Source: Pedobacter helvus (GTDB taxonomy: Bacteria > Bacteroidota > Bacteroidia > Sphingobacteriales > Sphingobacteriaceae). From it: a DNA stretch of 64,000 nt. A model generated the notes under the pieces. It was given only the letters and a program-made list of their open reading frames with translations. It was not told the origin of the DNA and did not search any database. The stretch covers positions 620,001 to 684,000 of the forward strand of contig NZ_SRMP01000001.1 in assembly GCF_005925325.1 (NCBI RefSeq), in the 5' to 3' direction. Numbering within the stretch: position 1 is the stretch's first letter; each line of letters opens with the position of its first letter. Below, in pieces: positions 6,774 to 25,862 of the stretch. Position numbers and translations under genes: made by a program.

Positions 6774-6778
6774 TTTTT

Positions 6779-6804
6779 ATTTCACTTATCGAAATAACAG
6801 AGAT
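6779..6804 (+). promoter_or_regulatory. Phage box A (upstream of packaging genes)
   Basis: The first and most degenerate copy of a five-copy element: ATTTCACTTATCGAAAT followed after AACA by GAGAT. It lies just after the stop of the HNH gene and about 300 bp before the small terminase. Unlike copies B, C and E it lacks a clear TATATTT block downstream. Confidence 0.6.
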
Positions 6805-7089
6805 AAAAGCAGCACGAGGTTATCGATGATCGTTTGAAACACTAAAAAAACGCCTTACAGACGCATTAAAGGCAGTTTTCAGATAAAAAGGTACTGTGAC
6901 GTCCTGAAAATCGTCCTGCAATACGTTGCGCACCCCGATCTTTAAGCAGTCTCAGTTTTTTCAAGACTGTTATATAAATTGTTATATAACAAAAGTTGGT
7001 TGTTATAAAAAATAGATATATATTGCATTTAATACACTTTGAGGCGGTTTTTGTTATACACTGCCAAAATATAACAACGTAATATAACA
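6796..7089 (+). other. Non-coding segment before the small terminase, putative cos site
   Basis: This 294-bp gap has no plausible gene. It has a relatively GC-rich core (about 6896-6942) with CGTCCTG repeated at 6900-6906 and 6912-6918 and the segment TTGCGCACCCCGATC, then an AT-rich part with an array of TTGTTATA repeats reaching the small-terminase start codon. In phage lambda the cos site (cosN then cosB with gpNu1-binding sites) occupies exactly this place before the Nu1 gene. The head gene order downstream is also lambda-like, so I infer a cos site with the nick site in the GC-rich core. No cohesive ends can be read directly. Confidence 0.5.
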
Positions 7090-7090
7090 A
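6967..7090 (+). promoter_or_regulatory. Array of TTGTTATA half-sites, candidate terminase or repressor binding sites
   Basis: Half-sites: 6967-6974 (CTGTTATA, 7 of 8), the perfect 14-bp palindrome TTGTTATATAACAA at 6979-6992, 7000-7007, 7051-7058, and the inverted form TATAACAA at 7070-7077 and 7083-7090. The copies at 7051 and 7070 form an inverted pair with an 11-bp spacer, and the last copy ends on the A of the terminase ATG. Such an array fits cosB-type sites bound by the small terminase, or an operator that autoregulates its gene. Confidence 0.7.
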
Positions 7091-7794
7091 TGGCTATCGT
7101 ATCTCGTAAGGAATTTGCAGAGATGTGCGGGGATGACGTTAAAACACTTAACGTTTATATCAACCGGCGCAAGGTTATTATGCATGATCCTGAGGGGAAA
7201 AAGATCGACACCGAAAACCTGGTTAACCTTCTTTACAAAAAGAAGCGCCACGAAATCAACAAAGCGAAAAAAGAAGATGCTGAAATCGCAAAACAGATCA
7301 TCGCCAATCCTAGAAAAAACGTAACTGAAGAATCCAACAACGGAGACGACGATGACGAAGATAATTCTAGCGAGGCGGATTTCGTGTCTGAAATGATGAA
7401 GGGTTTTGCCGGAGAAAATGGTTTTTCTGGTGGACAAAGTCCGATGTTAAAAAAACTGATCAAAGATACGGAGCTGGTAGAGTTGAAAATTCAAAAGGAA
7501 AAGATTTTGCTTGATAAGGCTGCAGGTAAATTAATACCTATTGATGTTGCTGCAAACCTATTAAGAAGCCAAGCACGATTTATATTTTCTAATTTCGACA
7601 ACGCTATTGAGAATATCGCAGGTGTGTACTGTCAAATCATGGCAAACGGAGATATGTCTTTGTATGCTAGGATTGTGGAAGAGGGAAAAAAGCAGTTATC
7701 AGCAGCGATTGAACGTGCAGGTTCAGATGTAGATAGCGACTTAGAAAAAATAGTAAATGAATTTAGCCAACATTCTGCTACTAGAGTTTTATGA
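7090..7794 (+). CDS. Terminase small subunit, Nu1-like
   Basis: A 234-residue protein. Residues 1-50 (VSRKEFAEMCGDDVKTLNVYI, then KIDTENLVNLL) resemble the winged helix-turn-helix of lambda gpNu1, which binds cos DNA. An acidic linker (about 80-96, rich in D and E) leads to a helical C-terminal half (LKKLIKDTELVELKIQKEKI) likely to contact the large subunit. It is immediately followed by the large terminase with an ATGA overlap at 7791. The DNA just upstream carries the repeat array that would be its natural target. Assignment rests on position, domain layout and the start motif. Confidence 0.85.
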   Translation: MAIVSRKEFAEMCGDDVKTLNVYINRRKVIMHDPEGKKIDTENLVNLLYKKKRHEINKAKKEDAEIAKQIIANPRKNVTEESNNGDDDDEDNSSEADFVSEMMKGFAGENGFSGGQSPMLKKLIKDTELVELKIQKEKILLDKAAGKLIPIDVAANLLRSQARFIFSNFDNAIENIAGVYCQIMANGDMSLYARIVEEGKKQLSAAIERAGSDVDSDLEKIVNEFSQHSATRVL

Positions 7795-9860
7795 TAAACT
7801 ACACCGAAATCAATAATGCTAGGATCTCAGCTTTAAGAGAAATCAATGCCGATATTTTCGGGTTTAATTTGGTTAAGCCATTACCAGCAGATTGGATGGA
7901 AAAAACAATTTACATTCCCGCCTCTACTTCTGTTAGGCCAGGCTTATATAGTTTTGAATTTACCCCGTACATGAGGGAAATAGTGAATATTCTCCATCCT
8001 ACAGATATTACACGATTTGTTTCCATTATTAAAGATGGACAAAGCGGATTTACAACAGCTTTAGTCGTAGGTGGTATTTGCTACATCATTTCTGAAACTC
8101 CAGATGGTATTTTATTCACCGCATCTGATATACAACTAGCAGCAAAAACGGTTGAAGAAAGGTTGGATCCTGTAATTAGAAGTTCAAGTTTAAATCACTT
8201 GATTAGACCGAACGTAATCAAACGATCAAACAACAGATCAGGCGATACAAGTAAGAAAAAAGAATTTGCTGGCGGAACATTAACCAGTGCTGGCACAAAT
8301 AGTGCAAACACCTTTAGGATGTTTTCCGCTAAATACATTTTCGCCGATGATTACGATACATCACCTACAGAAATAGGAAAAGAAGGTTCGCCCAAAATGG
8401 TAATGAAAACCCGTCAAAACAGTTTTGGTGATAAAGCTAAAACATTCATGATCTCCACTCCTACCGTCACACAAACAAGTGCTACCTACAAGCAATATCT
8501 TTTGGGTACACAAGAAAAATGGAACTGGCCATGTCCGCATTGTGGCCAGTATTTTCCTGTTGAGTGGTTTGTCAAATTGGAAGATGGCAGTAAAAGTGGA
8601 GTAATTTACGATTTAGATGACGAAAAAAAACTTATACCAGATAGCATCAGGTATGTAACACCATGCTGTAAGGGCATAATTTTGGAAAAAGAAAAATATG
8701 ATTTAAACCTACTAGGCAAATGGATACCAACAGTAGAAAAACCTGTAGAACGAAATCATAGATCCTTTCAGAAAAATTCGATCTACAACCCACCTGGCTT
8801 TGATGGTTGGCGTACACTAGTTGAAGAATGGTTAGCCGCAAATCCACACGGAGAAAAAGCTAATACCTTACTATTAAAGGTATTCAACAACCTAAGGCTG
8901 GGTTTACCTTATGCCGAAGTAGGAGAAGCACCACGTGTAAACGAATTAATGGAAAATACACGAGAATATGTGCCTGGAGTTATACCTGATCTAACTTGTG
9001 AAAAGGACGGCAATGGCTCTATCATTATGCTTACGCTTTCATGTGATATCAACGGTATCATGGAAACTGATAATGAAGATGTTCGTTTGGATTGGGAGAT
9101 TTTAGCACATAGTAGTTCTGGTCCAACCTATTCTGTAGATCATGGATCTATTGGTACTTTCAAACGTTTAAGGGATAAATCTAAAGCTGAGCGTGAAAAT
9201 GACCACAATAGGGATAAGTATACTCTAAGCCATGGAATGAACTTCTCAGTTTGGCCTTTATTTGAGGAGCTAATTAGGAAATCTTATCCTATGGAAAGTA
9301 ACACTAGCGAAACCAGAAACATAGACATTACAGTTGTAGATACTGGATTTGGTGAAAAGTTAGCAATGCAATTTATTAAATCGTTGTATGCAGATGGAAT
9401 AATGATTTACGGTGTTAAAGGGCGTGTTGAAGACAGCTATACCAAAATAACTGTTGACAAAACTAAAATATCCAGAAGTAAAGAACACCCAAAACATCTA
9501 TATAATATTGAAGTTAATTTAGTTAAGGAAGATTTAGCTAGCTTCATGAAATTAAAAACTGGTGATGATGGAACGCAGCCGTCCGGTTTTATGAATTACC
9601 CTCAGCCTACCGACGGTAAGTATACCATGAAAAGTTATTTCATCCATTATGAAGGTGAACGGAAAACAGAAGTGAAAAAAAATAACGAGACTGTCGGTTT
9701 TCGCTGGGAGAAAAAAAACAACCAAAGTTTAAATCACTTTTGGGATGTTCGCATCTATAATCTTGTTGCGCCATTGGTTTATTTGGATATAGTAAAACAA
9801 TCTGATCCTAGTTTAAAAAATTTGACATGGGAAGAATTTGTTATGATGATTACACAATAA
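7791..9860 (+). CDS. Terminase large subunit, lambda gpA (GpA) family
   Basis: A 689-residue ATPase/nuclease that packages DNA. Features typical of the GpA family are seen in order: an N-terminal ATPase domain with DGQSGFTTAL (about 81-90) near the Walker-A position, an acidic ATPase segment FADDYDTSP (about 184-192), KTFMISTPTV as coupling motif, and the zinc-knuckle-like WPCPHCGQYF (about 246-255) with a partner CC further on. The C-terminal nuclease half contains VVDTGFG and conserved acidic residues. The length is close to the 640 residues of lambda gpA. The family generates cohesive ends, which supports a cos site upstream. Confidence 0.93.
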   Translation: MINYTEINNARISALREINADIFGFNLVKPLPADWMEKTIYIPASTSVRPGLYSFEFTPYMREIVNILHPTDITRFVSIIKDGQSGFTTALVVGGICYIISETPDGILFTASDIQLAAKTVEERLDPVIRSSSLNHLIRPNVIKRSNNRSGDTSKKKEFAGGTLTSAGTNSANTFRMFSAKYIFADDYDTSPTEIGKEGSPKMVMKTRQNSFGDKAKTFMISTPTVTQTSATYKQYLLGTQEKWNWPCPHCGQYFPVEWFVKLEDGSKSGVIYDLDDEKKLIPDSIRYVTPCCKGIILEKEKYDLNLLGKWIPTVEKPVERNHRSFQKNSIYNPPGFDGWRTLVEEWLAANPHGEKANTLLLKVFNNLRLGLPYAEVGEAPRVNELMENTREYVPGVIPDLTCEKDGNGSIIMLTLSCDINGIMETDNEDVRLDWEILAHSSSGPTYSVDHGSIGTFKRLRDKSKAERENDHNRDKYTLSHGMNFSVWPLFEELIRKSYPMESNTSETRNIDITVVDTGFGEKLAMQFIKSLYADGIMIYGVKGRVEDSYTKITVDKTKISRSKEHPKHLYNIEVNLVKEDLASFMKLKTGDDGTQPSGFMNYPQPTDGKYTMKSYFIHYEGERKTEVKKNNETVGFRWEKKNNQSLNHFWDVRIYNLVAPLVYLDIVKQSDPSLKNLTWEEFVMMITQ

Positions 9861-9870
9861 AATATTTTTT

Positions 9871-9910
9871 ATTTCATTTTACGAAATAAAAGAAATTTAA
9901 ATGTATATTT
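9871..9910 (+). promoter_or_regulatory. Phage box B (head module)
   Basis: ATTTCATTTTACGAAAT, AAAA, GAAAT, then TATATTT about 8 bases further (9904-9910). It lies 11 bp after the large-terminase stop and before the W-like/portal genes. Spacing is base-for-base identical to box C. Interpreted as a phage promoter or activator site. Confidence 0.75.
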
Positions 9911-9940
9911 CCATCCTTCATAAATAGGTTTGTTTGGTTT

Positions 9941-9976
9941 AACTGGTGCACGCATTCTGTGTGTGCCAGTTTTTTA
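9941..9976 (+). terminator. Terminator-like hairpin in the leader after box B
   Basis: The arm AACTGGTGCAC pairs with GTGTGTGCCAGTT (with G-U wobbles) around a short loop, followed by a run of T. It lies between box B and the W-like gene, so a transcript from box B would meet it before any coding sequence. It may attenuate that transcript or end the terminase transcript. Confidence 0.6.
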
Positions 9977-9986
9977 ACTTAAAATC

Positions 9987-10295
9987 ATGTCGTTAGATAA
10001 TTGTACGATCGTAGAATACTTGGAAAGTAAGCCGACGCTTGCGGCAAGGATTAGAGCTATAGATGTTTTGATTGACAAGGCTATTCTTTCGATGGCAGAA
10101 ACAGTTGAAGGTGTCGGGGGAAATATCAGCACCTATGAATTAGATGATGGACAAGTTAAGATTAAAACCGGATACCGAAGCATAAGCGAGGTAGAGGCAG
10201 GTATAAAATCGCTAGAAAGGATGAAAAACCTTTATAGTAATAAACTTTACGGTCGTAGTGTGCAATTGCGAGATATTAACACATTTGGTAGATAA
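9987..10295 (+). CDS. Head-tail connector, lambda gpW-like
   Basis: A 102-residue protein between the large terminase and portal, exactly where lambda gpW lies. The C-terminal part (YELDDGQVKIKTGYRSISEVEAGIKSLERM) has the beta-hairpin plus helix pattern of gpW-type connectors, in which a DG turn is followed by a helix. It is somewhat longer than lambda gpW (68 residues), with an extra N-terminal helix. The last base is shared with the portal start at 10295. gpW joins the filled head to the neck. Assignment is from position and pattern. Confidence 0.6.
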   Translation: MSLDNCTIVEYLESKPTLAARIRAIDVLIDKAILSMAETVEGVGGNISTYELDDGQVKIKTGYRSISEVEAGIKSLERMKNLYSNKLYGRSVQLRDINTFGR

Positions 10296-11923
10296 TGGCG
10301 TTTTGGAATAGCTGGTTTGGCAAGCCGTCAATTGATGAGCAAGTTGTAGAAAATATTTTACAGCAAGAGGTATCTGCAGTTAAGCAACAAAACACCTCAA
10401 ATTCTTTTTTCGATGGCGATTTCCATACAGGAAATTATATGGTTAACACCTTCGTTTTTAATGGCGAAAAGTCACATGGCGAGCTTGGAAATCCTATTAA
10501 TCTTTTACCCGACTATAAAGCTTTGCGACTTAGAGCATACGAAGCTGACTTTACCAATGATACGGTTAAAATCGTAACTGGTAAATTTTTTAAATGGGTA
10601 ATCGGAACCGGACTAAAACTCAGATCAGAACCAAACAAAGTAGTATTAGATATTGAGGGTATTAAAGAACCTTTAAAGCCTTTCCGCAATAACGTCGAAA
10701 GTTATTTTCACACATATGCTTCGAGCACAATGTCTGATTATTCTGGCAAACAAGATTTGCACGACAATGCAAGGGATGTTCTAAAGACTTCATTTTTGGG
10801 AGGCGATTGTTTAACGGTACTTCGTGTCGATAATGACTACAACCTCACAGTACAGGTTATAGACGGTCAACATATTTGCACTCCCATTCTCAGCAACGGC
10901 TATATCGAGGCTGCCAAACTAAGGGGCAATAAAATAAAGCACGGGGTAGAGATCGATAAGAGAGGTCAGCATGTTGCATTTTACTTCGTTACTCAAACGG
11001 ATAACGCCTTACCAACTTATGAGCGTATTGAAGCTAAAAGTAAATCAACAGGTTTGACTATGGCTTGGTTAACTTATGGAGATAAGCAGCGCATCGATCA
11101 TGTTAGAGGGGTATCAAATCTATCTGCTATACTTGAGAAGGTTAAAAAGCTAGATCGTTATACAGAAGCTTCGGTATCAGCTGCAGAGGAAAGAGCAAAA
11201 ATTCCATTTGCTATTGAGCACAGCCGATTTTCAGATGGCGAGAATCCTTTATTGGGAGCGCTAAAGAAAAATCAAGGGGTTGATGTCATGGAGAGTAGTT
11301 ATGCTACAGGTGCCAAATTAGCGCCGCAGATTGCTGCTACGGCGAATAAACAGGTTTGGAACATGCCTATTGACAGTAAACTAAAAGCTTTAGAAAGTAA
11401 TTCTGAAATAAATTACGAAACGTTTTTCAAAGCCATATTCGTTCAAATATGCGCCAGTATGGATTTACCTCCAGAGGTAGCTTTACAACAATATAATTCA
11501 AATTACTCGGCGTCTAGGGCTGCTATCAATGGTTTTTCTTTTATTTTAGAACAGTATCGAGATAAATACAGTAAATCATTTTATAAAAAAGTTTATGTAG
11601 TGTGGTTACACTTGCATATTCTCAAGAACAAAGTAAGTGCAAGCGGCTATCTGCCTGCTTTTTTAAATAAAAATAGATATGTGGTAGAAAGCTATGCGAA
11701 TTCACGGTTTATTGGTCAGCGCATACCTCACATAGATCCTAAAAAAGAAGCCGACGCTTTGCGTATTATGCTAGGAGATCCATCAAAAGGTGAACAACCA
11801 TTAATTACTCATGAAGACGCTACAGAACAGCTGGGTAATGGCGACTTTTTTGAGAACCATGATAAAGTAATTGAAGAAAGAGAATTAGCACCAAAACAAA
11901 ATGCAACTAAGCCCGAAAATTAA
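10295..11923 (+). CDS. Portal protein, lambda gpB family
   Basis: A 542-residue portal that would form the dodecameric vertex through which DNA enters. Signatures of the lambda-type family are visible: IDGQHICTP (about 188-197), HVRGVSNLSAIL (about 268-280), EERAKIPFAIEH, and LPPEVALQQYNSNYSASRAAI (about 394-414), the conserved segment near the clip/stem region. Length matches lambda gpB (533). It overlaps the W-like gene by one base and the following small gene by 23 bp. Confidence 0.92.
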   Translation: MAFWNSWFGKPSIDEQVVENILQQEVSAVKQQNTSNSFFDGDFHTGNYMVNTFVFNGEKSHGELGNPINLLPDYKALRLRAYEADFTNDTVKIVTGKFFKWVIGTGLKLRSEPNKVVLDIEGIKEPLKPFRNNVESYFHTYASSTMSDYSGKQDLHDNARDVLKTSFLGGDCLTVLRVDNDYNLTVQVIDGQHICTPILSNGYIEAAKLRGNKIKHGVEIDKRGQHVAFYFVTQTDNALPTYERIEAKSKSTGLTMAWLTYGDKQRIDHVRGVSNLSAILEKVKKLDRYTEASVSAAEERAKIPFAIEHSRFSDGENPLLGALKKNQGVDVMESSYATGAKLAPQIAATANKQVWNMPIDSKLKALESNSEINYETFFKAIFVQICASMDLPPEVALQQYNSNYSASRAAINGFSFILEQYRDKYSKSFYKKVYVVWLHLHILKNKVSASGYLPAFLNKNRYVVESYANSRFIGQRIPHIDPKKEADALRIMLGDPSKGEQPLITHEDATEQLGNGDFFENHDKVIEERELAPKQNATKPEN

Positions 11924-12320
11924 AAACAAATCATTGATTTGGTCGCTACTTTTAAAGGTGCGAGTTGGTACAGTGGTAAATGCTGGAGGTAACTACTATT
12001 TTAACACATCAGGAAAAAATTCTGCTGTTACTGATACTAACAATTGGTTCCAAATTTTCAGTAATCCAGGATCTGTCACCATTGAACTAAATAAAACGGC
12101 TGCTAATATTACTGGTAATGATCCTGATTATGGAATTAGCATAGCTAATGATAATGCACCTGTCTTCCCTACCATATTAAAATTGTATGTAGACATCTTA
12201 GGTAATGGAAGTTACCAACTAGTAGATCCAGTCATTTATGATCCAGCTACAAAGATGATTTCTGGTCTTTCAAGCCCAGCAGATTTTCCAAATCAAAAGA
12301 TTAAAATATTTTTTCAATAA
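11901..12320 (+). CDS. Small phage protein, possible surface or fibre-type domain
   Basis: A 139-residue frame beginning 23 bp inside the portal gene. The first 25 residues look like out-of-frame filler, and a compact domain seems to start at about residue 22 (VGTVVNAGGNYYFNTSG, TDTNNWFQI), resembling the small beta repeats of tail-fibre proteins. The rest (ILKLYVDILGNGSYQLVD) is beta-rich. It may be a remnant of a larger gene or a small capsid-surface protein. Box C starts 7 bp after its stop, so it belongs to the box B transcript. Confidence 0.5.
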   Translation: MQLSPKIKNKSLIWSLLLKVRVGTVVNAGGNYYFNTSGKNSAVTDTNNWFQIFSNPGSVTIELNKTAANITGNDPDYGISIANDNAPVFPTILKLYVDILGNGSYQLVDPVIYDPATKMISGLSSPADFPNQKIKIFFQ

Positions 12321-12326
12321 TTTTTT

Positions 12327-12366
12327 ATTTCATTTTATGAAATATAAGAAATATAAATGTATATTA
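12327..12366 (+). promoter_or_regulatory. Phage box C (protease/capsid block)
   Basis: ATTTCATTTTATGAAAT, ATAA, GAAAT, then TATATT at 12360-12365. Identical spacing to box B. It precedes the protease/scaffold, decoration and major capsid genes, which need very high expression. Confidence 0.75.
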
Positions 12367-12374
12367 GTTTCATG

Positions 12375-12403
12375 TGCTTCTAAATGCTAATAGAAGCAGT
12401 TTT
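12375..12403 (+). terminator. Hairpin with T-run in the leader after box C
   Basis: TGCTTCT pairs with AGAAGCA across a 10-base loop and is followed by GTTTT. As after box B, the hairpin sits between the box and the first start codon. The stem is short, so efficiency is uncertain. Confidence 0.45.
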
Positions 12404-12416
12404 AAACATCGAGTAA

Positions 12417-13682
12417 ATGAACTATTCTTTAGCTAGAGAAATTTATGGCGGTGCGCCATGGATGGTTGATGCTTCAACTTTTAGTGCATTAAGATCAATG
12501 CTTAATGACTTTCGTGCTGGCGTTAACTTTCATGCGAAAGAAGATAAGAATAACGCTATAGCGTTGGTTAAGATTTCGGCAGCAACCAAGATAATCAATA
12601 GAACTTGGCAGCTTAGTGATGATTACCAAGGAGATGATTTAGTTTATGTCATTAATCTTAACGGTGTAATTACCAAAGATGGTGGCGAAAGTACATTTGG
12701 CATGAAACAACTAGCTGCTCAAATGCAGAACTTTGATGCAGACAAGCGAGTTAAAGGCGGTGTTATCGTTGTTGATAGTGGCGGTGGTTCTACATCTGGA
12801 ATGGAAGTAATGACACACGCTATTGAAAAGCTCACTAAACCACTAGTGACATTAGTTGAAAGAGGTGGTGTAGCAGCGTCTGCAGCTTATGGAATTAGCT
12901 CAGCTACCGATTATGTTTTTTCAGAAAGCAAACACTCTGTAGTAGGGAGTATAGGCACGATGGTTTCTTTTGCTGGTATCCCTAATGGAGAGCGTGATGG
13001 CGATAACCAAAAGCACTTTGCGATATATGCCACGAAAAGCACTGCAAAAAACAAGATGTGGGAAGAGGCAATCAATAGCGACAATGTTGAATTGATTAGG
13101 AAAGAACTACTCGATCCTGTAAACGAAAAGTTTTTGGCTGATATAAAACGTAGAAGACCTCAAGTGCTAGAAACTCAACTTGACGGCTCTGTTTACGAAG
13201 CTGGAAAAGTAGTCGGCACTTTGGTAGATGCTATTGGAACTTTCGATGATGCGGTAAAAAAAGTGATGGACCTGTCAAAAGCGCAACCATCCAATTCAAT
13301 TAGTAACAAAAATTCAAAAAATAAAATAAATACTAAGGCTATGACAGCACAAGAATTAAAATCGTCACATCCAGAAACTTACAAAGAGATTTTCGGTGCT
13401 GGCGTAAAGCAAGGTATTGCAGCTGAAAAAGATCGTGTAGGCTCATGGATGGCCCATGCAAAAACTGATTTACCTGCAGTCCAAAAAGGAATTGAAGATG
13501 GTGGAAAGATTACAGCGACAGCTCGTGAAAATTTTCTAGTTAAAGCAGCTTCATTAAAACAACTGGGAGATTTGAAAGCAGAAAGTGCTAAAGATCTTAA
13601 TCCAGATGAAGCAACTAGCGAAGAAAAAGAGCTTAGCGAAGCGGATGCATTTTATAAATCAATTTTGGAGGACACTGAATAA
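12417..13682 (+). CDS. Head maturation protease, S49 family (lambda gpC-like), with C-terminal scaffold
   Basis: A 421-residue protein. Residues 70-270 form an SppA/S49 serine protease: YVINLNGVIT, IVVDSGGGSTSG, and GGVAASAAYGISSATDYVF with the predicted nucleophile Ser155, then VGSIGTMVSF. The general-base Lys is probably K208 or K212 in IYATKSTAKNK. After an N/K/S-rich linker (about 289-306) comes a helical charged scaffold domain. Lambda gpC has the same design, with the scaffold Nu3 made from an internal start in the same frame. It cleaves scaffold and portal during prohead assembly. Last base shared with the decoration gene. Confidence 0.9.
   Translation: MNYSLAREIYGGAPWMVDASTFSALRSMLNDFRAGVNFHAKEDKNNAIALVKISAATKIINRTWQLSDDYQGDDLVYVINLNGVITKDGGESTFGMKQLAAQMQNFDADKRVKGGVIVVDSGGGSTSGMEVMTHAIEKLTKPLVTLVERGGVAASAAYGISSATDYVFSESKHSVVGSIGTMVSFAGIPNGERDGDNQKHFAIYATKSTAKNKMWEEAINSDNVELIRKELLDPVNEKFLADIKRRRPQVLETQLDGSVYEAGKVVGTLVDAIGTFDDAVKKVMDLSKAQPSNSISNKNSKNKINTKAMTAQELKSSHPETYKEIFGAGVKQGIAAEKDRVGSWMAHAKTDLPAVQKGIEDGGKITATARENFLVKAASLKQLGDLKAESAKDLNPDEATSEEKELSEADAFYKSILEDTE
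13341..13682 (+). CDS. Nested capsid scaffold from internal start of the protease gene (predicted)
   Basis: ATG at 13341 is codon 309 of the protease frame and is preceded by AAGG with short spacing. Starting there would give a 113-residue acidic, helical protein (MTAQELKSSHPETYKEIF start) with the composition of a scaffold. It follows a flexible linker, so the domain boundary and start codon coincide. In lambda the scaffold Nu3 is produced in this way inside gene C. No other scaffold gene is visible. The start is predicted, not proven. Confidence 0.6.
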   Translation: MTAQELKSSHPETYKEIFGAGVKQGIAAEKDRVGSWMAHAKTDLPAVQKGIEDGGKITATARENFLVKAASLKQLGDLKAESAKDLNPDEATSEEKELSEADAFYKSILEDTE

Positions 13683-14122
13683 TGGACGTTACACAAAGAA
13701 ACGCAACCCGTAATCAGTCAACCGCTGATTACCAAAGCAAGAAGATTTTTATCTTCGATAACAGATACATTGAGGGTGTCTTTAAAAATAATTCAGGAGG
13801 TTCTTTTACACTTTCGCCGGGAATGTTGGCTGTTAGAGATATTGCAGTTGCTGGTGGTTTTTTACCAGCAACAGCTGATAATATTGCAGATGTGATCGGT
13901 GTAGTTGCCGTAGATGGTTCTGTAGTTTTAGCAAATGCTGCTACGGCAAATGTAAACGTCTGCACAAAAGGTGGTATCGATGGAAACATGTTGATTTTAC
14001 CAGCTACGGTAACGCTTAACACTGTACCTACGGATGCAGCAAAAACCGTGAGAGATATTTTAGAAGGCATCGGCTTACATATCGATACTTCATCAGTAGA
14101 AATGACAAAATTCGATAACTAA
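13682..14122 (+). CDS. Capsid decoration protein, lambda gpD-like
   Basis: A 146-residue protein between protease and major capsid, the gpD position. It has the small beta-rich, Gly/Ala-rich pattern of decoration proteins: SFTLSPGMLAVRDI, VIGVVAVDGSVVLANAA and KGGIDGNMLILPATV. Trimers of gpD clamp the expanded capsid against packed DNA pressure. It overlaps the protease gene by one base, and the capsid gene starts two bases after its stop. Confidence 0.72.
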   Translation: MDVTQRNATRNQSTADYQSKKIFIFDNRYIEGVFKNNSGGSFTLSPGMLAVRDIAVAGGFLPATADNIADVIGVVAVDGSVVLANAATANVNVCTKGGIDGNMLILPATVTLNTVPTDAAKTVRDILEGIGLHIDTSSVEMTKFDN

Positions 14123-14123
14123 A

Positions 14124-15191: not shown

Positions 15192-15193
15192 TC

Positions 15194-16565: not shown

Positions 16566-16577
16566 TTCATTAACAAT

Positions 16578-18095: not shown

Positions 18096-18127
18096 TTTAC
18101 AGATTTTACAACCATTAAAAATAAGAT

Positions 18128-18535: not shown

Positions 18536-18550
18536 CTTAAATTTTAACCT

Positions 18551-18580
18551 AAAAGCCATCTATAAAAGGTGGCTTTTTTT
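18551..18580 (+). terminator. Intrinsic terminator after the tail tube gene
   Basis: AAAAGCCATC pairs with GGTGGCTTTTTTT around TATAAAA. Stem plus a T-run of seven. It probably reduces read-through from sheath and tube into the less abundant chaperone and tape-measure genes. Confidence 0.75.
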
Positions 18581-18594
18581 AAATCAAATAAATC

Positions 18595-19002
18595 ATGTAT
18601 AAAGTATCAGAAGAAGTAGCAGTAAAAGAAGTATTGGAATTTGTAGTCAAATACAATCGCAAAGCAAATGATGTAGATAAAGTATTAGATCTATATCCTG
18701 ATGTTGTAGAAGCTGTAAAATTAGGTAATCTAAACCTATCATCAGAAAATCCAGTCCTAAAGTTGCAGGATCCTATTAAAAACTCAGACGGTGATATAGC
18801 TGTTGAGGAAGTATCATTTAAAACAAGAATGAAGCCTAGCGATCATAGGCGTGTATCTAAAGGAATTGATGTATCCAAAGATCAATTATTATTTGGACAC
18901 AGATGTGTTGCTTTTATTATAGATCAAGAAGTTGCAATGCTTGATAAAATTGAAAGAGAAGATTATAAGGTGATTGATCAACTATCAACGCTTTTTATCT
19001 AG
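18595..19002 (+). CDS. Tail assembly chaperone, short form (G/gp41-like)
   Basis: A 135-residue protein between tube and tape measure, the place of tail assembly chaperones. It has a helical N-terminal part (EVAVKEVLEFVVKYN) and a segment VSFKTRMKPSDHRRVSKG typical of this protein class in contractile-tailed phages. It ends in LSTLFI followed by TAG. The DNA just before the stop holds a run of five T, and an open -1 frame continues to the tape-measure start, so a longer form is expected. Confidence 0.72.
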   Translation: MYKVSEEVAVKEVLEFVVKYNRKANDVDKVLDLYPDVVEAVKLGNLNLSSENPVLKLQDPIKNSDGDIAVEEVSFKTRMKPSDHRRVSKGIDVSKDQLLFGHRCVAFIIDQEVAMLDKIEREDYKVIDQLSTLFI

Positions 19003-19181
19003 GCTGGTCAGCTGATATCGAAGGCGTACTTGTTACGCTAAGCAGAAATTATGATTGGGCCAGCCCACAGATCCTAGAAGATCTTTATTGTGATGATTTA
19101 GATACACTGGGTATAATATACTGGTATAATGATGTATGCCAGCAACATAGAGAAATGGAAGCTAAATACGGTAAAAAGTAA
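18595..19181 (+). CDS. Tail assembly chaperone, -1 frameshift extended form (predicted)
   Basis: Slippage by one base at TTTTT (18992-18996) moves ribosomes from the short frame into a frame reading YLGWSADIEGVLVTL onward and ending in TAA at 19179-19181, overlapping the tape-measure ATG. It adds about 62 residues, including a W/Y-rich helical segment. The -1 frame is open only from a TGA about 20 bases before the T-run, so the shift must fall in that narrow window. Mu, P2 and lambda make an equivalent G-GT or E-E' pair in this place. Confidence 0.72.
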
Positions 19182-21088
19182 TGGCAGCAACGGTAAAGGT
19201 ACCAACTATATTTTCGGCTGTAGATAAAGTCAGCACTATTGTCAAGCGAATGAGCCGTAATGTACGCTCGTTCGCCAGCACGGTTAGTTCTGGTATAGCA
19301 AAAAGTAATCGCTGGTTTAAAAAACTAACTCCATCGATCAGCGAGGCTGGAAATGAACTTCTATCTTATGCAAAGTCGGCGGCAATAGCCGGTGGTATAA
19401 TAGCCGGAATTTCATTCTCGGCAAATGCCGTCACAGATTATGAGCAAAATGTTGCGTCTTTTCGAACGATCGTTTCGGATTTAAGCTCGAAAGATTTCTC
19501 TGTATATAAAAAAGAAGTTGGAGATGTAGCTACTGCAACAAAAGCTAGTACAATTGAAGTAGTTCAATCGTTCGAAAAAATCGCAGGATTAAATGCAAAA
19601 TTTGCTGAAACTTCTACTGGTATCGGTCAGGTATCCAAGGCTGCAATTACACTGGCAAAAGCTTCTGGTGATGAATTAGGAACGAGCGCTGAAAACTTGG
19701 TTGGTATCATGAACCAGTTTAGTTTAGGTGCAGACCAGGCAAATAGAACCATCAATGTTTTAGCTGCTGGTCAAGCAGTCGGTGCAGCTTCTATTTCACA
19801 AACCTCCGAAGCGTTTAAAAACTTTGGTTCTGTTGCGAGCGGAGCTAATATGAGCTTAGAGCAATCTGTAGGTTTAATCCAAACCCTCGGTAAGTTCTCG
19901 ATTTTTGGAGCCGAAGCAGGCACGAAATTACGTGGTGTAACTTTGAAACTTCAACAAGCTGGAGCTGGTTATGCTAGTGGTCAGTTTCAAATCAACGACG
20001 CTTTAGCGCAAGTAAGTAAAAAATACAACAAGCTAACAAGTCAGCGAGCAAAAGACGCCTTCATGTTAAAATTGTTTGGCGCTGAAAATATCTCAGTTGG
20101 TAAAACTCTTTTGAGTAACATAGCTTTGTTCAAAGAATATACTGATGGTGTATCTGGAACTACAGAAGCTCAGAAAGCAGCTGCCATCAACAGTGATACT
20201 GTCAACAAAAAGTTAGAGGAAATGAAAAATAAGTGGGTGAACATCATCACAACCTCTGACCAGGCTGAAAGCAGTCTGACAAATGCTAAAACTGCAATGG
20301 GATATGTTACCGACAACATGGAAGCCATCATTTCTATAGGCTCTAAAATATTATTATTTTTTGCCGCATGGAAAGCGATAATCATTGCTAATTCAATAGC
20401 AATGGGCGCTTACAATATAGCTTTAGGTATAAACGGTGCTGTTACTGGTATTGTTTCTATTGCTGTAGGCAAAAGTAATATAGCTTTGAAAGCTTACCAA
20501 ATCACAACTAAAGCAGTTACAGCTGCTCAATGGCTATGGAATGTAGCCATGACAGCAAACCCAATTGGATTAATAATAGTAGGTATAGCTGCATTAATTG
20601 CGATTGTAGTAGTAGTTATCCAAAAGTGGGATGAATGGGGCGCAGCTTTCTCGCTTGTTATGGGGCCTCTTGGCATCGTAATAAGTCTAATTCAATCTTT
20701 TAGACGTAATTGGGACATGATCACTAAAGCGTTCAAAGAAGGTGGAATTTTAGAGGGTTTAAAAGCAATAGGCAAAGTAATTCTTGATGCATTGTTACAA
20801 CCATTCGAGCAGTTACTCGGCATTATTGCAAAAGTAACGGGCTTTAAATGGGCTGAAAACGCCGCTGCAGGTTTAAATAAATTTCGTGCCGAGATGGGTG
20901 TGAGCATGGAAGCTAAACCAGCTTTAGGTACACCCCAACAAAAAGCGGAAGAACTTAAATCTCAAAACCCACAAACGAATACTTTAGACGTGAATTTCAA
21001 CGATCCTGACAATAGGGTAAAATCAACAAGTATGAAAGGTCCACTAGCAATTCCAGTAAAGGTTACTAGTACCAATGGTAAAAGATAA
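19181..21088 (+). CDS. Tail tape measure protein, TP901 family
   Basis: A 635-residue protein. Residues about 85-280 match the TP901 core: NVASFRTIVSDLSSKDFSVY, KASTIEVVQSFEKIAGLNA, TLAKASGDELGTSAENLVGI, LSVLAAGQ-like and FGSVASGANMSLEQSVGLI. The middle to C-terminal part has hydrophobic segments (ISIGSKILLFFAAWKAIIIA and GLIIVGIAALIAIVVVVIQ) expected to enter the host membrane during injection. Tape length sets tail length; 635 residues would give a tail of roughly 95 nm by the usual 0.15 nm per residue (inference). ATG overlaps the stop of the frameshifted chaperone. Confidence 0.9.
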   Translation: MAATVKVPTIFSAVDKVSTIVKRMSRNVRSFASTVSSGIAKSNRWFKKLTPSISEAGNELLSYAKSAAIAGGIIAGISFSANAVTDYEQNVASFRTIVSDLSSKDFSVYKKEVGDVATATKASTIEVVQSFEKIAGLNAKFAETSTGIGQVSKAAITLAKASGDELGTSAENLVGIMNQFSLGADQANRTINVLAAGQAVGAASISQTSEAFKNFGSVASGANMSLEQSVGLIQTLGKFSIFGAEAGTKLRGVTLKLQQAGAGYASGQFQINDALAQVSKKYNKLTSQRAKDAFMLKLFGAENISVGKTLLSNIALFKEYTDGVSGTTEAQKAAAINSDTVNKKLEEMKNKWVNIITTSDQAESSLTNAKTAMGYVTDNMEAIISIGSKILLFFAAWKAIIIANSIAMGAYNIALGINGAVTGIVSIAVGKSNIALKAYQITTKAVTAAQWLWNVAMTANPIGLIIVGIAALIAIVVVVIQKWDEWGAAFSLVMGPLGIVISLIQSFRRNWDMITKAFKEGGILEGLKAIGKVILDALLQPFEQLLGIIAKVTGFKWAENAAAGLNKFRAEMGVSMEAKPALGTPQQKAEELKSQNPQTNTLDVNFNDPDNRVKSTSMKGPLAIPVKVTSTNGKR

Positions 21089-21123
21089 TTTCATTTTATG
21101 AAATATATGAAATAATAATATTT
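21088..21123 (+). promoter_or_regulatory. Phage box D (gp46-47-48 block)
   Basis: ATTTCATTTTATGAAAT, ATAT, GAAAT, then a TATTTT block at about 21118-21123. The first base is the last base of the tape-measure stop codon. The next ATG is only 6 bp after the box, so a transcript would have almost no leader. Confidence 0.72.
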
Positions 21124-21129
21124 TCTCGT

Positions 21130-21609
21130 ATGTTTGAAACAAACGACATCCTGTTATATGAAAATGGGAATGGTGGTGAAATAGGTATTGAAGGCAACGA
21201 TATCGCCTTAAATGATCAGCTCTTGCAGCAACCTTATTTATGCCTTTTCGGTGGTAATGTGGAGGCAGTTACCAATGGTAATGAACCGCAAGGTTCTTTG
21301 CGTGAGGATTGGTGGGGAAATGCTTTATTTTTTGCTCAAGAAACTGGCAGGCAATTCAATTCCGTAACAGAAAAAGCATTAAAGGAAACCGCCTTTAACA
21401 GTGCTGGCAGAATTAAAATAATGAGAGCCGCAGAATTAGACTTAGAGCCTTTAAAGGTGTGGGCTGATATTGTGGTTGATGTTGTCATTTCTAAAGTTAA
21501 TGAAGTAATTATTTCTATTAGGTTGAAACAACCTAACAAACAAGAAAACACTGTCAACATCGTGTGGGATGGTGCAAAACAGCAGGTAGTAAAACAAATA
21601 ATAATTTAG
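21130..21609 (+). CDS. Baseplate protein, Mu gp46 family
   Basis: A 159-residue protein with the family landmarks: an N-terminal strand DILLYENGNGGE, then LCLFGGNVEAVTN and GSLREDWWGNALF, the W-W-G-N pattern typical of gp46. The C-terminal half is alternating strand (DIVVDVVISKVNEVIISIRL). gp46-like proteins form part of the inner baseplate next to the wedge. It follows box D directly and abuts the J-like gene without a gap. Confidence 0.82.
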   Translation: MFETNDILLYENGNGGEIGIEGNDIALNDQLLQQPYLCLFGGNVEAVTNGNEPQGSLREDWWGNALFFAQETGRQFNSVTEKALKETAFNSAGRIKIMRAAELDLEPLKVWADIVVDVVISKVNEVIISIRLKQPNKQENTVNIVWDGAKQQVVKQIII

Positions 21610-22785
21610 ATGAAGCCAATACCATCTACAGTAGAATTGCAGAACCGTTTAAGTGCAGATATAACGGCTCAACTAGAGATTAGTGATGTCGGTATGAAGC
21701 GGGTAATCGATACAATATCGGCGGTATTGGCTGGTGAACTTAAATTGGCTTACTTATACCTACAGGACATACAGAACAATGTCTTTCCAGATACTGCAGA
21801 TTTAGCGATAGATGGTGGAGAATTGAACAGGATTGGTCAAATACAGTTGAACCGACAGCCAAGGCCCGCAACTAGCGGAATTTACAAAGTTTCGGTTGAC
21901 GGTGAAGCAGCTTCTGTTTTAAAAGCTGGTCTTACATTCAAAAGTAATAGTGAGAGTAAAAGTCCTGGTAACCTCTACATCTTAGAACAGGATTATATTT
22001 TAACTGGCACTGATGATGAAATCATTTTAAGAAGTTTAGATGCTGGTCCGGATTTTATTTTGGAAGAAGAAGATACCTTAACAGCAACAGAGCCTTTGAT
22101 CGGCGTAGACCAGATTGCAACCATTTTAGAAGTTACAACACAGCCCACTGCAGCCGAAAGTATAGAATTATACCGTAAAAACGTAATTGATGCTATTAGA
22201 TTAGAAGCTCAAGGTGGTGCAAGAACAGATTACCGCTTATGGTCCGCTGATGCTCAGGGGGTAGAAAGAGTATTTCCTTACGTAAAAATTGGTGAAGCAG
22301 GTACAGTTCAAGTGTTTTTAGAAGCAACGGTAACAGATAGTATTGATGGTAATGGTACTCCTTCTGCTGCATTAATAAATGAAGTGATTGAGGTTATTAC
22401 ACAAGATCCTGATATCACTCTGCCAACAAATCAGCGTGGCAGATTGCCTATAGGTGTTGTTCTGGAAGTGCTGCCAGTGGTAACGAAACCTGTTGACATT
22501 GAAATTATTGGACTACAGAACGATACACCATCCGTCCGCTCATCGATCAGTTCCAATATGAAAGATTTCCTGTTTACAGTAAGGCCATACATAGCTGGAA
22601 CTGATTTGTCGAGAGATAAGAATGATGTATTAACAGCTGTAAAAGCTCAGGCTATTGTTAGCGACACGGTTGGCAATGCTAATACCTTTACGGATTTTAA
22701 GATTTATGTCGACGGTGTAGAACAAAATACCTACTCATTTTCAGGTGGCATCATACCATATTTACGTAATGTAACCTATCTATAA
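21610..22785 (+). CDS. Baseplate wedge protein J-like, Mu gp47 family
   Basis: A 391-residue protein starting on the base after the gp46-like stop. Family landmarks include the helical N terminus with LAYLYLQDIQNNVFPDTAD, GIYKVSVDGEAAS, then AIRLEAQGGARTDYRLWSADAQGVERVF (conserved G-G-x-D-Y segment), and LPTNQRGRLPIGV. J-like proteins connect the baseplate hub to tail fibres. The order gp46-gp47-gp48 is the same as in Mu. Confidence 0.9.
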   Translation: MKPIPSTVELQNRLSADITAQLEISDVGMKRVIDTISAVLAGELKLAYLYLQDIQNNVFPDTADLAIDGGELNRIGQIQLNRQPRPATSGIYKVSVDGEAASVLKAGLTFKSNSESKSPGNLYILEQDYILTGTDDEIILRSLDAGPDFILEEEDTLTATEPLIGVDQIATILEVTTQPTAAESIELYRKNVIDAIRLEAQGGARTDYRLWSADAQGVERVFPYVKIGEAGTVQVFLEATVTDSIDGNGTPSAALINEVIEVITQDPDITLPTNQRGRLPIGVVLEVLPVVTKPVDIEIIGLQNDTPSVRSSISSNMKDFLFTVRPYIAGTDLSRDKNDVLTAVKAQAIVSDTVGNANTFTDFKIYVDGVEQNTYSFSGGIIPYLRNVTYL

Positions 22786-23573
22786 TGTACCAAGTTAACA
22801 ACAATAGCACAATGCATGGCTTTAAAACCCCTCATGGTTTTAGAACACCGCACCGTTTTCCTGTAAAATCTGGTACAAAAGAAGAATTGATGGCGCTTGC
22901 TAATCAGCTCTACCCTACTGGCCGTGCTTGGAATTTATCGGAACGAAGCTTATTTAATAAGCTTCATGCTGCTATCAATAAAAGCATCTTGAGGTTAACA
23001 TCTCAAGCCTACTCTTTAATTGATGGATCATTCCCAGACAATAGCAATTTCACAGAAGACGATGCTATTATTTGGGAATATAGATTAGGGCTAGTAGCTG
23101 GCTCTTTAACTTTGGAGCAAAGAAAGGCAAACATCTATAGAAAGATGGCATTTCCTCAAAATATCAAAGCACGTCAAAGCTTAGGATATATCGAAAGTCA
23201 ACTAAACTTGGCTGGTTTTAACGTTCACCTGTATGAAAATATATTTTATGATGATCTTGGAAATCTATTTAGAAAACTTCCATCTGAAATATTGCAACTG
23301 CAGTCTTCAACCATACAACACGGGGGCGGTACTCAACACGGGGGCGGTACTCAACACGGGGGTGGTAATACCGAAGTGATTGCCAATGAAGCTACGTCTG
23401 AAAATTATAATATTGGCGGGGTTGACAAGTTGTACGCTACTTTTTTTATAGCAGGCGATACGATTGATCAGATTGCCACCGTGGAAAAGTCACGTGAAAG
23501 AGAATTTAGAGAATTGATTTTGAAATTGAAACCAGCCCATATGGTTGGATTTCTTTTTGTTAACTATATTTAA
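22785..23573 (+). CDS. Baseplate/tail protein, Mu gp48 (DUF2313) family
   Basis: A 262-residue protein overlapping the J-like gene by one base. The segment LMALANQLYPTGRAWNLSE (about 35-53) is the diagnostic start of this family, followed by LRLTSQAYSLIDGSFPDNSN and WEYRLGLV. The C terminus ends in LILKLKPAHMVGFLF, also typical. Within it, residues about 178-195 hold three QHGGG[TN] units encoded by an 18-bp tandem repeat. The N-terminal 25 residues are also repetitive (HGFKTPHGFRTPH). It likely links the wedge to fibres. Confidence 0.82.
   Translation: MYQVNNNSTMHGFKTPHGFRTPHRFPVKSGTKEELMALANQLYPTGRAWNLSERSLFNKLHAAINKSILRLTSQAYSLIDGSFPDNSNFTEDDAIIWEYRLGLVAGSLTLEQRKANIYRKMAFPQNIKARQSLGYIESQLNLAGFNVHLYENIFYDDLGNLFRKLPSEILQLQSSTIQHGGGTQHGGGTQHGGGNTEVIANEATSENYNIGGVDKLYATFFIAGDTIDQIATVEKSREREFRELILKLKPAHMVGFLFVNYI
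23316..23369 (+). repeat. Three tandem 18-bp units in the gp48-like gene
   Basis: Units at 23316-23333, 23334-23351 and 23352-23369. The first two are identical (CAACACGGGGGCGGTACT), the third differs at the third C-to-T position and the last codon. In-frame and Gly/His coding. Copy-number change would lengthen a flexible loop without breaking the frame. Confidence 0.95.
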
Positions 23574-23574
23574 G

Positions 23575-24633
23575 ATGGCTACCAATAAAAAGAATGCCCC
23601 AAACATTGACCTTTCGGATAATGAAAACTATCCAGATGGCAGGATCCAAGACAATACAGGTTCTGGAAATGGAACACCTGTAAATAGATTGCTCTATAGC
23701 GACATACATGAGTTTTTTGCTAAGTTAATGCGACTGGGTAATATCCCTTATAATGGACTTCCTGACAATGAAGCAAACACACATCAATTGGTTACTGCTG
23801 CAATAGCACTAGCTGGCAAAAATGATTTTATTTATTCATTGAGTGATATTGGTGGTGTAATAAATATTGCGACGGACCTATCTATAATTAAGGACGGTGA
23901 AATGCTTATGGCCAGAGCTGGTTTTAACTTTGCATCTCAAACAAATATCAAGGGAACCACCGCCACGTTGTATGGGACAATCATTCCTAGCAGTTTTAAA
24001 AATAACGATTATATCCTACTTATAAAGAGCGGTTCATCTGCTTTTATAATTCAACGGTTGGCAGATGCAAATAATATTGATACGCTTGTATCTGAATTTA
24101 ATTTCTTAAAGGGAGCGAATAGTGCCGAAGAATTTGCTGGAACGGCAACCAACAAGGCAACAACACCATATACAAATCAATTAGCTTTTGCAAGAAGAGT
24201 GATTGGGCTGGACAGTGGATTATTTTTAGCCAGCTCAGTTAGAAATGGCTTAATGTCGAAAGAAGATAAAGCAATCCTTGACGGTTTAAGCGATCCTGTT
24301 AAAAATAGAGGTTGGTTTAGTGGTTTAGATCCTGGTTCTGCAAGTCAAATAGGCTCGCAGTTACCTCGATCTGGAGATATTGTAAGCGCCACAGTTTTAT
24401 CACAAGTTGATACTATTGTTTCAAATGTCAGGGTGGTATTCGCTAATCCCATGGCGTCTGCAAATTATTATTGTCGGTTTTTTTTAGAATCGGAAGGAAG
24501 TCTACAGGCAGATAACAATATGCTTTCTCCAATTTTTAAAAAAGAAACAAATACACAGTTTTTATTTTCACTGGAAGAAAGAGTGGCAACCACAGCTAGC
24601 ATTAAAGTTCATATAGAGGTAGTACAAATATGA
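23575..24633 (+). CDS. Tail fibre-like protein 1 with shared N-terminal attachment module
   Basis: A 352-residue protein. I place the start at ATG 23575, two bases after the preceding stop, because the residues before it in the same frame overlap the gp48 gene and look random. Residues 10-75 (YPDGRIQDNT, NGTPVNRLLYSDIHEFFAKL, PDNEANTHQLVTAA) form a module found again at the start of the next protein. The middle is beta-rich and the C-terminal region (GDIVSATVLSQVDTIVSN onward) is strand-rich. Probably a fibre or fibre adaptor on the baseplate. Exact role unknown. Confidence 0.65.
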   Translation: MATNKKNAPNIDLSDNENYPDGRIQDNTGSGNGTPVNRLLYSDIHEFFAKLMRLGNIPYNGLPDNEANTHQLVTAAIALAGKNDFIYSLSDIGGVINIATDLSIIKDGEMLMARAGFNFASQTNIKGTTATLYGTIIPSSFKNNDYILLIKSGSSAFIIQRLADANNIDTLVSEFNFLKGANSAEEFAGTATNKATTPYTNQLAFARRVIGLDSGLFLASSVRNGLMSKEDKAILDGLSDPVKNRGWFSGLDPGSASQIGSQLPRSGDIVSATVLSQVDTIVSNVRVVFANPMASANYYCRFFLESEGSLQADNNMLSPIFKKETNTQFLFSLEERVATTASIKVHIEVVQI

Positions 24634-25808
24634 GGACCGTAAAACATTTGCCTAATGGCATAGAAAGAGAAACTGATCTTGTCAAATTCCCTGACAGTAC
24701 CGTTGTAAATGAAACCGAAAACAACGAAGGCACTCCGGTAGTTAGAGAGATTTATGGCGATGTACTCACCAATTTATACAAAATTCTTCGATTAACTAAA
24801 GAAACTGCAAACGGTTTCGAAGATAATGAAGTAAACGGTTACCAGTTGGTAAATGCTTTACGGAAGTTCACTAACGAACTGAATGACATTGAGCAACAGT
24901 TGAATTTGACCGGAACTCAATTCTCTATTAATATAGATCTAAGTATACTACCTAACAAATATGTTTGTTTTGCTAGAGCTGTAGAGACTTATGTTTCGAG
25001 TACTGTCTATACATTCAAAGGAACAAATAGTGACGTGTTTCCTTTTTCTGCACCTGTACCATTCAAAAGTGGGGATGTCGTTTTAGTAATAATTGATACT
25101 TCAGGTGTCAGGGCTTATAGTATAGTGCCTTCTGCAGCAGTCAGCATTCCAAAGGAAATTTACACACCGTTGGGATTGCCTGTAGCGTTTAATAATTCAG
25201 ATAAAATCTGGTATCAGGAAGAAGGCTATTTTTTGAGCGATCAACCAGAAAGTCATGACTTGCAGGCTGCTATAAGATTTGCTGCATCTGACGGCACTTT
25301 ACTAGTATATGAAATGCTAGTAGTTAATTCGTTTGTGTATTGTCTAGTATTTGCCCCTAATACTTTAGCTTACAGCATTCATAGGTTTTCTTTAACGGAT
25401 TTAAGTTCGCCATCGCTTGTAAATATAACAGGGGAAAGTTTCCCTATTGGAGTGGATAGAAGGCCAAATATTTACACTGATGGCGAGACGCTCTATATCA
25501 CAAATCAAACTGGTAACAGTGATAGTGATTTCGTGCTAAGCAAATATACTTTTGATCACATTTTGGGGACGTTGACAGCTGTTGGCAGTATTTCCCTTGA
25601 CAGCTCTTTCGCTAAGAGCACCAACTGTGTTGTCAAAAACAATCTGTTGTTTGAACTTATCAACGGCCAGCTTAATAAATACGATTTAGGAACTGGCGTA
25701 AAAACTCCAGGTTCATTTTTTGCCGGAAATGTTGGCTTGTTGTTTAACTATAAAAACAACTTTTACTACACAAACGGCGAAGTAGGTAAACTGTGGAATT
25801 TAAATTAA
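24630..25808 (+). CDS. Tail fibre-like protein 2, paralogous N terminus
   Basis: A 392-residue protein overlapping the previous gene by 4 bp. Its first 80 residues (FPDSTVVNETENN, GTPVVREIYGDVLTNLYKIL, FEDNEVNGYQLVNALRK) repeat the module of the preceding protein at about 35-40 percent identity by eye. The C-terminal half looks like repeated beta strands (YTDGETLYITNQTGNSDSD, LNKYDLGTGVKTPG), as in propeller or receptor-binding domains. Likely attached to the same place on the baseplate as protein 1, with a different tip. Box E starts on the base after its stop. Confidence 0.65.
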   Translation: MRTVKHLPNGIERETDLVKFPDSTVVNETENNEGTPVVREIYGDVLTNLYKILRLTKETANGFEDNEVNGYQLVNALRKFTNELNDIEQQLNLTGTQFSINIDLSILPNKYVCFARAVETYVSSTVYTFKGTNSDVFPFSAPVPFKSGDVVLVIIDTSGVRAYSIVPSAAVSIPKEIYTPLGLPVAFNNSDKIWYQEEGYFLSDQPESHDLQAAIRFAASDGTLLVYEMLVVNSFVYCLVFAPNTLAYSIHRFSLTDLSSPSLVNITGESFPIGVDRRPNIYTDGETLYITNQTGNSDSDFVLSKYTFDHILGTLTAVGSISLDSSFAKSTNCVVKNNLLFELINGQLNKYDLGTGVKTPGSFFAGNVGLLFNYKNNFYYTNGEVGKLWNLN

Positions 25809-25846
25809 ATTTCATATTTTGAAATAACCGAAATAAAAGTATATTT
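25809..25846 (+). promoter_or_regulatory. Phage box E (gp43-44-45 block)
   Basis: ATTTCATATTTTGAAAT, AACC, GAAAT, then TATATTT at 25840-25846. One base shorter than boxes B and C between the second GAAAT and TATATTT. It heads the block that holds the baseplate hub genes and the large fibre. Confidence 0.75.
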
Positions 25847-25862
25847 ACAAAACAGCTGGACT

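Follow-up and report, generated by a model that had tools for sequence, protein, structure and literature searches.

How are the late genes of a temperate Pedobacter phage switched on, and what marks out their promoters? The question is raised by a 64,000-nucleotide stretch of Pedobacter helvus DNA (G000:C1:620001-684000; hereafter the window), in which one short box is repeated five times within a 46.5-kb prophage. The box, ATTTC-N7-GAAAT-N4-GAAAT, consists of an inverted repeat and a third half-site in direct repeat, giving the spacing 5-7-5-4-5; copies B, C, D and E are exact, and copy A has one mismatch (GAGAT as third half-site). We propose, at a probability of about 0.77, that the boxes are activator sites of the late promoters of a temperate Pedobacter phage, in which the host −7 element appears to have been kept and the −33 region replaced by a phage-specific operator of three half-sites.

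Copies of the box and the anatomy of the promoters

All five copies lie on the plus strand, exactly where the initial annotation of this DNA had placed them (Table 1). Its statement that they head virion blocks is also borne out: A precedes TerS/TerL, B the portal, C the protease, decoration and capsid genes, D the wedge and J genes, and E the minor tail and hub genes. Each box starts at, or no more than 10 nt past, the stop codon of the preceding gene, and box D overlaps the last base.

With up to two mismatches the window holds six matches to the box, the sixth overlapping B on the opposite strand, against a mean of 0.65 and a maximum of 2 in 100 dinucleotide shuffles; the prophage holds four exact matches, compared to none in 200 shuffles. 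In the 4.6-Mb genome the exact box occurs only four times, every one in this prophage. Allowing one mismatch gives 13 matches genome-wide, comprising the four exact copies, box A and eight one-mismatch matches outside the prophage; a reversed-pattern control also gives 8, so the genome outside the prophage is at background level. The composite GAAAT-N4-GAAAT-N4..12-TATATT is found three times genome-wide, at B, C and E (reversed-pattern control, 1), with no copy in host DNA outside the prophage. The box is therefore phage-specific, as annotated, rather than being equally common in host intergenic DNA, and a host regulon was rejected because box and composite are both at background outside the prophage. 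Among viral contigs, the box followed by TATATTT was found in six stretches: two in a record of the window's own prophage, two in the related phage V31, and two single intragenic matches in other phages; L158 and L159 have single matches, in coding sequence. A search of window positions 6600-12500 against Rfam (E up to 1) gave no match.

The initial annotation held that the sites lack the host TAnnTTTG element. This is wrong, since TAHHTT follows 12 of 15 late boxes (window phage 4/5, V31 3/5, and 5/5 in the related prophage G154), sites that represent three phages and are not independent, and from which two early G154 boxes without a −7 element were left out. The element was sought 4-10 nt past the box and found at 5, 6, 7 or 9 nt; as a control, it occurs at 5.6% of noncoding positions, or 10.8% of those that are AT-rich. 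At B, C and E the expected place is taken by TATATT(T/A)N, and a perfect TATATTTG stands at several orthologous sites in relatives. The downstream TATATTT described earlier holds roughly for B (+7), C (+7) and E (+5), but D has only TATTTT (+5) and A has none.

The promoters of Flavobacterium johnsoniae combine a weak −33 element with TAHHTTTG at −12 to −5, and transcription starts 4-5 nt further on (PMC6847099). Applied to a 7-nt spacer, this spacing would put the half-sites at about −45 to −41, −33 to −29 and −24 to −20, so that the box would occupy the place of the −33 element. Compared to primary-sigma promoters of Bacteroidota (TTTG/TAnnTTTG; same source), the −7 element and likely start distance are alike, whereas here a repeated box specific to the phage takes up the −33 region. 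In the site table, a TTTG at −33 can be seen to overlap the first GAAAT in most G154 sites and in window E; window B, C and D have TACG/TATG.

In the mechanism that we propose, a dimeric activator made by the phage would bind the box in place of the −33 element, and the bound activator would recruit host RNA polymerase with its ordinary primary sigma factor, by class II-like activation or sigma appropriation. Were the activator made early, the late blocks would be switched on together after induction. The annotation had suggested a phage activator or a sigma-like factor. A phage factor does fit a box that differs between phages and is uniform within each; with a host-type −7 element present, a separate sigma factor is not needed, and it is simpler to assume an activator that acts together with the sigma factor of the host.

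The box in related and unrelated phages

The syntenic set comprises the window phage, whose prophage is also present in records L014 and L017, V18 (record L018; TerL 72% identical), V31 (record L031; 61%) and G154 (55-56%), the last from a genome of the same genus as the window host. All five places have an orthologous box in V31, with A at 8111 (two mismatches), D at 22296 and E at 27025. G154 has it at A (21408, two mismatches), B (two), C, and at E one gene further, with two more in the early region. L016, of which 5.3 kb of sequence is available from Pedobacter sp. UBA1951 (TerL 83% identical), has a box with one mismatch at B. V18 carries a different box, GAAAC-N4-TATAC, at B (two), at C and weakly at E' (five mismatches to its own pattern), with no box found before the terminase block at position A. 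The same type was recognized by eye at B in L030, and also before terS, the latter site not being counted. In G219, a decayed prophage in another genus, a third box of GATAG type was seen by eye at three late gaps, including B, and E one gene on. At position D two genes abut or overlap in G154 and V18, and no box was found there.

The boxes are more alike within a phage than between phages. Identity is 21.2/26 within and 15.5 between phages (0 of 5000 label permutations), with the registers of V18 and G219 set by hand and L016 and L030 left out; different positions in one phage agree at 22.1/26 (n = 13), compared to 15.9/26 (n = 26) for the same position in different phages. To judge from the sequences, such concerted change at fixed places is the trace expected of a trans-acting factor with a changing target. 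Descent along with TerL alone was rejected as an explanation: V18 is closer in TerL than V31 and G154, yet has a different box.

A self-repeat scan of viral loci L030-L107 of at least 5 kb found the box only in L031, the remaining repeats being of other kinds. A reference-free scan for inverted-plus-direct triples with a −7 element, in which neighbouring registers are counted apart, gave 7, 8 and 5 plus-strand matches in the window phage, G154 and V31, against 1, 1 and 0 on the minus strand. Elsewhere it gave single plus-strand matches in G188, G320 and G406 and two minus-strand matches in G191; the spacing of L173 (below) lies outside its registers.

Phages with unrelated virion genes were reached by searching with the HNH-type protein encoded before box A. 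In L171 (TerL 24% identical), TATTC-N7-GAATA-N4-GAATA follows the HNH gene and is found again after TerL with GAATC as the middle half-site, so the 5-7-5-4-5 design is kept with another half-site; the record has two more one-mismatch copies, one intragenic and one early. In L173, ATTAC-N4-GGAAT-N4-GTAAT is found three times, and two of the copies are followed 6 nt downstream by TATATTTG (by eye). In L156, of the prophage type of G305, a single 5-7-5-4-5-like site was recognized by eye after HNH; it is not repeated and was not counted. Many of 14 loci from more distant tail-sheath relatives have TAnnTTT(G/A/C) in late gaps, one (L123) having none, and repeat detection in six of them gave two copies at most. 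The half-site variants across phages are GAAAT, GAATA, GAAAC/TATAC, GATAG, GTAAT and GTTAT.

Two further kinds of site were observed. A matching box lies directly at the start codon of a phrog_2113-type early gene in the G154 prophage (L026:12035-12060, minus strand) and in the phage of L171 (L181:5506-5531, minus strand); the two have different half-sites, lack a −7 element and are possibly operators, and the window phage has no early box at a phrog_2113-type gene. In L175 (13395-13415 and 16138-16158) a palindrome, TGTAACA-N4-TGTTACATTT, overlaps a TACATTT(G/A) −7 element before late-side genes, and is perhaps a repressor-type version.

Candidate readers and rival explanations

The best candidate for the reader, on grounds of co-occurrence, is an early protein of GerE/LuxR type, although we put its chances somewhat short of even. 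Its gene (G000:C1:612149-612745) lies in the early region just left of the window, and the protein matches PF00196 (E = 9.7e-8), the transcriptional regulator PHROG 10300 (9.5e-22) and, weakly, a PHROG named sigma factor (phrog_3282, E 2e-5). Among the GAA-type box phages, the early region is available for three, and each of these has the gene: the window phage, G154 and the phage of L171, where it is cut by the record end. In a search of nine records, matches were found in G154 and the window's own, and none in V18, V31, L030, L033, L034, L039 and L040, several of which are fragments. ComA of Bacillus subtilis, a GerE-type activator, likewise binds one element as inverted and direct repeats close to promoters, with type I and type II activation (PMC4797271); it differs in being a host quorum regulator with four elements and spacers of 4 nt (inverted) and 5 nt (direct).

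A GerE homologue (E ≤ 1e-12) occurs in 16 of 145 genomes of the genus, including the window's, with that of G154 below the limit. Eight of the 15 other genomes were examined, and four of these (G013, G406, G209 and G320) each carry a repeated box of their own. In G406 the sequence ATAAC-N5-GTTAT-N4-GTTAT occurs four times, always in forward orientation: ahead of the terminase block, of the gene that comes next, of a tail block and of a minor-tail block. G209 and G320 have ATTAC-N6-GTAAT-N5-GTAAT exactly twice and three times on the plus strand, and in G209 TAnnTTTG lies 5 nt past the box in 3/3 (by eye). When each phage was letter-shuffled five times, no more than two copies arose, or three in G188, which places G209 and G320 one copy above; a second control, of four host stretches and six related phages, gave two copies at most. 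A loose comparison by eye of recognition-helix letters with half-sites pairs HxQNI/HxQNM with GTAAT/GTTAT and K[DN]xI with GAAAT/GAATA, a rule that G154 breaks.

Several observations weigh against the proposed promoters or this reader. There is no −7 element at window A, V31 A or V31 D, nor after the two early G154 boxes or the L171 boxes, and a terminator between promoter B and its gene is not explained by simple activation. Among genomes with the GerE gene, G305, G191 and G182 have no repeated box, and G188 is at the level of its shuffle control, and is borderline because its shuffles reach three copies. The three-part pattern of G209 and G320 is also exact once each on the minus strand, and one G209 box precedes a DnaD-like replication gene, so not all of these regulons are purely late. 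Strict TAHHTT is rare in the GerE prophages, with one site each in G406 and G320 and none in G209. Conversely, G219 has boxes and no GerE gene in its early region, the prophage being decayed; V31, V18 and L030 have no GerE match, though their sequences end before the early region; and in G154 the half-site is likewise GAAAT, but the GerE protein is only 25% identical to that of the window phage and differs in its recognition helix. On the evidence for and against, we place the GerE-type protein below even odds as reader.

A broader and more doubtful proposal is that temperate phages of Pedobacter and its relatives share this design of late switch. An early GerE-type protein would read a private three-half-site operator on the −33 region of host-sigma promoters, and the half-site "password" would have been rewritten repeatedly from phage to phage, whatever their virion genes, which would keep co-resident phages from cross-activating each other's late genes. 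Our confidence in it was lowered by the minus-strand matches and by the −7 elements missing outside the main clade.

Another phage protein may read the same promoters, which we consider possible but not probable; the candidates are the 69-residue protein encoded at the early/late junction, the phrog_2113-type protein and the HNH protein. Both the 69-residue gene and the HNH gene persist at the junction in all four syntenic phages, as well as in L156, whose virion module is a different one; in two phages, a matching box stands at the start codon of the phrog_2113-type gene. On the other hand, the window phage has no such early box, and the 69-residue family has no consistent Pfam match and no solved-structure relative at E up to 1. 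The 69-residue protein is further down-weighted because L171 and L173 have repeated boxes with no homologue of it beside HNH. It is unlikely that the box is instead the operator of a lysogenic repressor that silences the late promoters until induction. The inverted repeat does cover the −33 region, the boxes at the phrog_2113-type start codons look operator-like and lack a −7 element, and the L175 palindromes overlap the −7 element; however, the −33 element is degenerate at most sites, the main-clade box lies upstream of −7 in the position of an activator, and positive control is the norm for the late genes of temperate phages. The narrow distance of 5-9 nt from box to −7 element would suit an alternative sigma factor, of phage or host, that reads both as its own promoter. 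This we regard as very unlikely, given that the −7 elements fit the primary sigma consensus TAHHTTTG, that dyad symmetry implies a dimer, that host copies of the composite are absent, and that no sigma-factor domain was found among 29 distinct prophage proteins scanned with Pfam (not every open reading frame). Finally, the AT-richness of the box would suit chance repeats, or host promoters of the usual kind that involve no factor from the phage, but the shuffles, the genome background and the −7 enrichment speak against this reading, positional conservation with concerted change contradicts it, and its probability is negligible.

The terminator behind promoter B (Table 1) keeps alive, for B, a model of the lambda Q kind, in which the box would load a promoter-bound phage antiterminator and RNA polymerase would pass terminators. 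A hairpin followed by T6 is found at B in the window phage and in all five close relatives (L016, V31, V18, G154 and L030), with a differing stem sequence, and a terminator lies within 260 nt in 17 of 55 TerL loci scanned, one of which (L017) is the window's own prophage. No second box lies past it in four of the six (window phage, L016, V31 and L030), where the portal block would need read-through, and the half-sites extend between −33 and −7, where lambda's Q element lies. Yet V18 and G154 do carry a second box behind the terminator. When four phages were folded, no hairpin with a T run was found after D, E or E', and a weaker one was found after C only in the window phage; a weak V31 hairpin after A sits in the candidate cos region, and the strong terminator is at B only. 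With five separate promoters, moreover, antitermination from one would be needless, and we think such a mechanism improbable. Transcription from promoter B may end after about 60 nt and leave a short RNA, unless some mechanism allows read-through. Between promoter B and the terminator (window 9904-9975) lies a leader with an ATAGGTTTR..TTTGGTTTA-like sequence, seen by eye. In the more distant L052, L056, L068 and L069, terL is followed by a −7-like element, a terminator and a second −7-like element.

The activator reading has counterparts in known systems. The late promoters of phage Mu are activated by C, of the Mor/C family. As in phages with regulators of the Mu C or P2 Ogr kind, a shared dyad site is found upstream of several late operons of one phage, and as in Mu, several late promoters head virion blocks and a dyad activator site replaces the −35 region; here, instead, there are three half-sites and a Bacteroidota-type −7 element. 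No Mor-type helix-turn-helix (HTH) protein was found among the 29 prophage proteins scanned, which do not cover every open reading frame. The middle promoters of T4, with their MotA box and sigma appropriation, similarly join a phage box near −30 to a host −10-type element, whereas the present box is a dyad plus direct repeat and serves the late genes of a temperate phage. Lambda Q at pR' shares the promoter-bound phage factor and a terminator close behind the promoter, as at B; the present system differs in its multiple promoters and in having a strong terminator only at B. In the open-licence literature we met no description of a late promoter or a late activator from a Bacteroidota phage, which is weak evidence that none has been described. 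That phages use activators at their late promoters is already known; what sets this case apart is the three-part design and the phylum.

If the activator reading is correct, it provides a rule for promoters that can be put to the test, predicts where RNA starts, names a candidate activator and sets out matched boxes as an evolutionary series. It would also offer a route to reading operons in the many uncharacterised prophages of the phylum, and the set of boxes could supply mutually independent expression switches for Bacteroidota.

Layout of the prophage and neighbouring genes

The left end of the prophage lies outside the window and carries repressor-like HTH genes, a small open reading frame, the GerE-type gene and early genes, as seen in L014. 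The late blocks follow in the order TerS/TerL; portal; S49 protease, decoration, capsid E, tail sheath and tape measure; wedge and J; minor tail and hub. An integrase-like gene, named by eye, lies at the prophage end (37106-38344), and homologues lie at the same end of three other phages.

Table 1. Boxes, promoter elements and adjoining genes of the late region (window coordinates)
Feature	Position	Strand	Remarks
69-residue protein gene	6046-6255	+	early/late junction; conserved, unannotated
HNH-type protein gene	6252-6773	+	directly upstream of box A; kept even among phages whose virion genes are unrelated
Box A	6779-6804	+	precedes TerS/TerL block; GAGAT third half-site; no clear −7 element downstream
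terS	7090-7794	+	block headed by box A
terL	7791-9860	+	block headed by box A; box B follows
Box B	9871-9896	+	between terL and portal block
−7 element of promoter B, TATATTTC	9904-9911	+	+7 from box; predicted RNA start about 9916-9917
Intrinsic terminator	9943-9975	+	12-bp stem, T6; between promoter B and portal block
Box C	12327-12352	+	precedes S49 protease, head decoration, capsid
−7 element of promoter C, TATATTAG	12360-12367	+	+7 from box; V31 orthologue TATATTTG, equal spacing; predicted RNA start about 12372-12373
Box D	21088-21113	+	precedes baseplate wedge and J
Weak −7-like element of promoter D, TATTTTCT	21119-21126	+	would yield nearly leaderless RNA, ATG 21130
Box E	25809-25834	+	precedes minor tail protein and baseplate hub
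−7 element of promoter E, TATATTTA	25840-25847	+	+5 from box; predicted RNA start about 25852-25853

The 69-residue family has 36 proteins, including the window's, with a conserved NARLRxDGYRKPVK; phages that differ in their virion modules have it at the early/late junction. Upstream of terS, in the stretch 6890-7090, is a candidate cos site (6917-6937), AAGGTACTGTG ... TGCAATACGTTGCGCACCCCG, whose sequence is conserved in the window phage, V31, V18, L030 and L016 (where it ends at the contig edge) and less well in G154; TGTTATA-type iterons after it could be TerS binding sites. In the early region, window 3296-4390 encodes a protein with a PAPS-reductase domain, which has no homologue in the three syntenic phages within the available sequence. 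A phage DNA polymerase sliding clamp (beta) is encoded at L014:17833-18981 and is kept in related phages and in the decayed G219. In the G154 prophage, the open reading frame at 6373-7515 (reverse complement of L024+L025+L026) contains a long repeat of AHANTAG type, partly masked.

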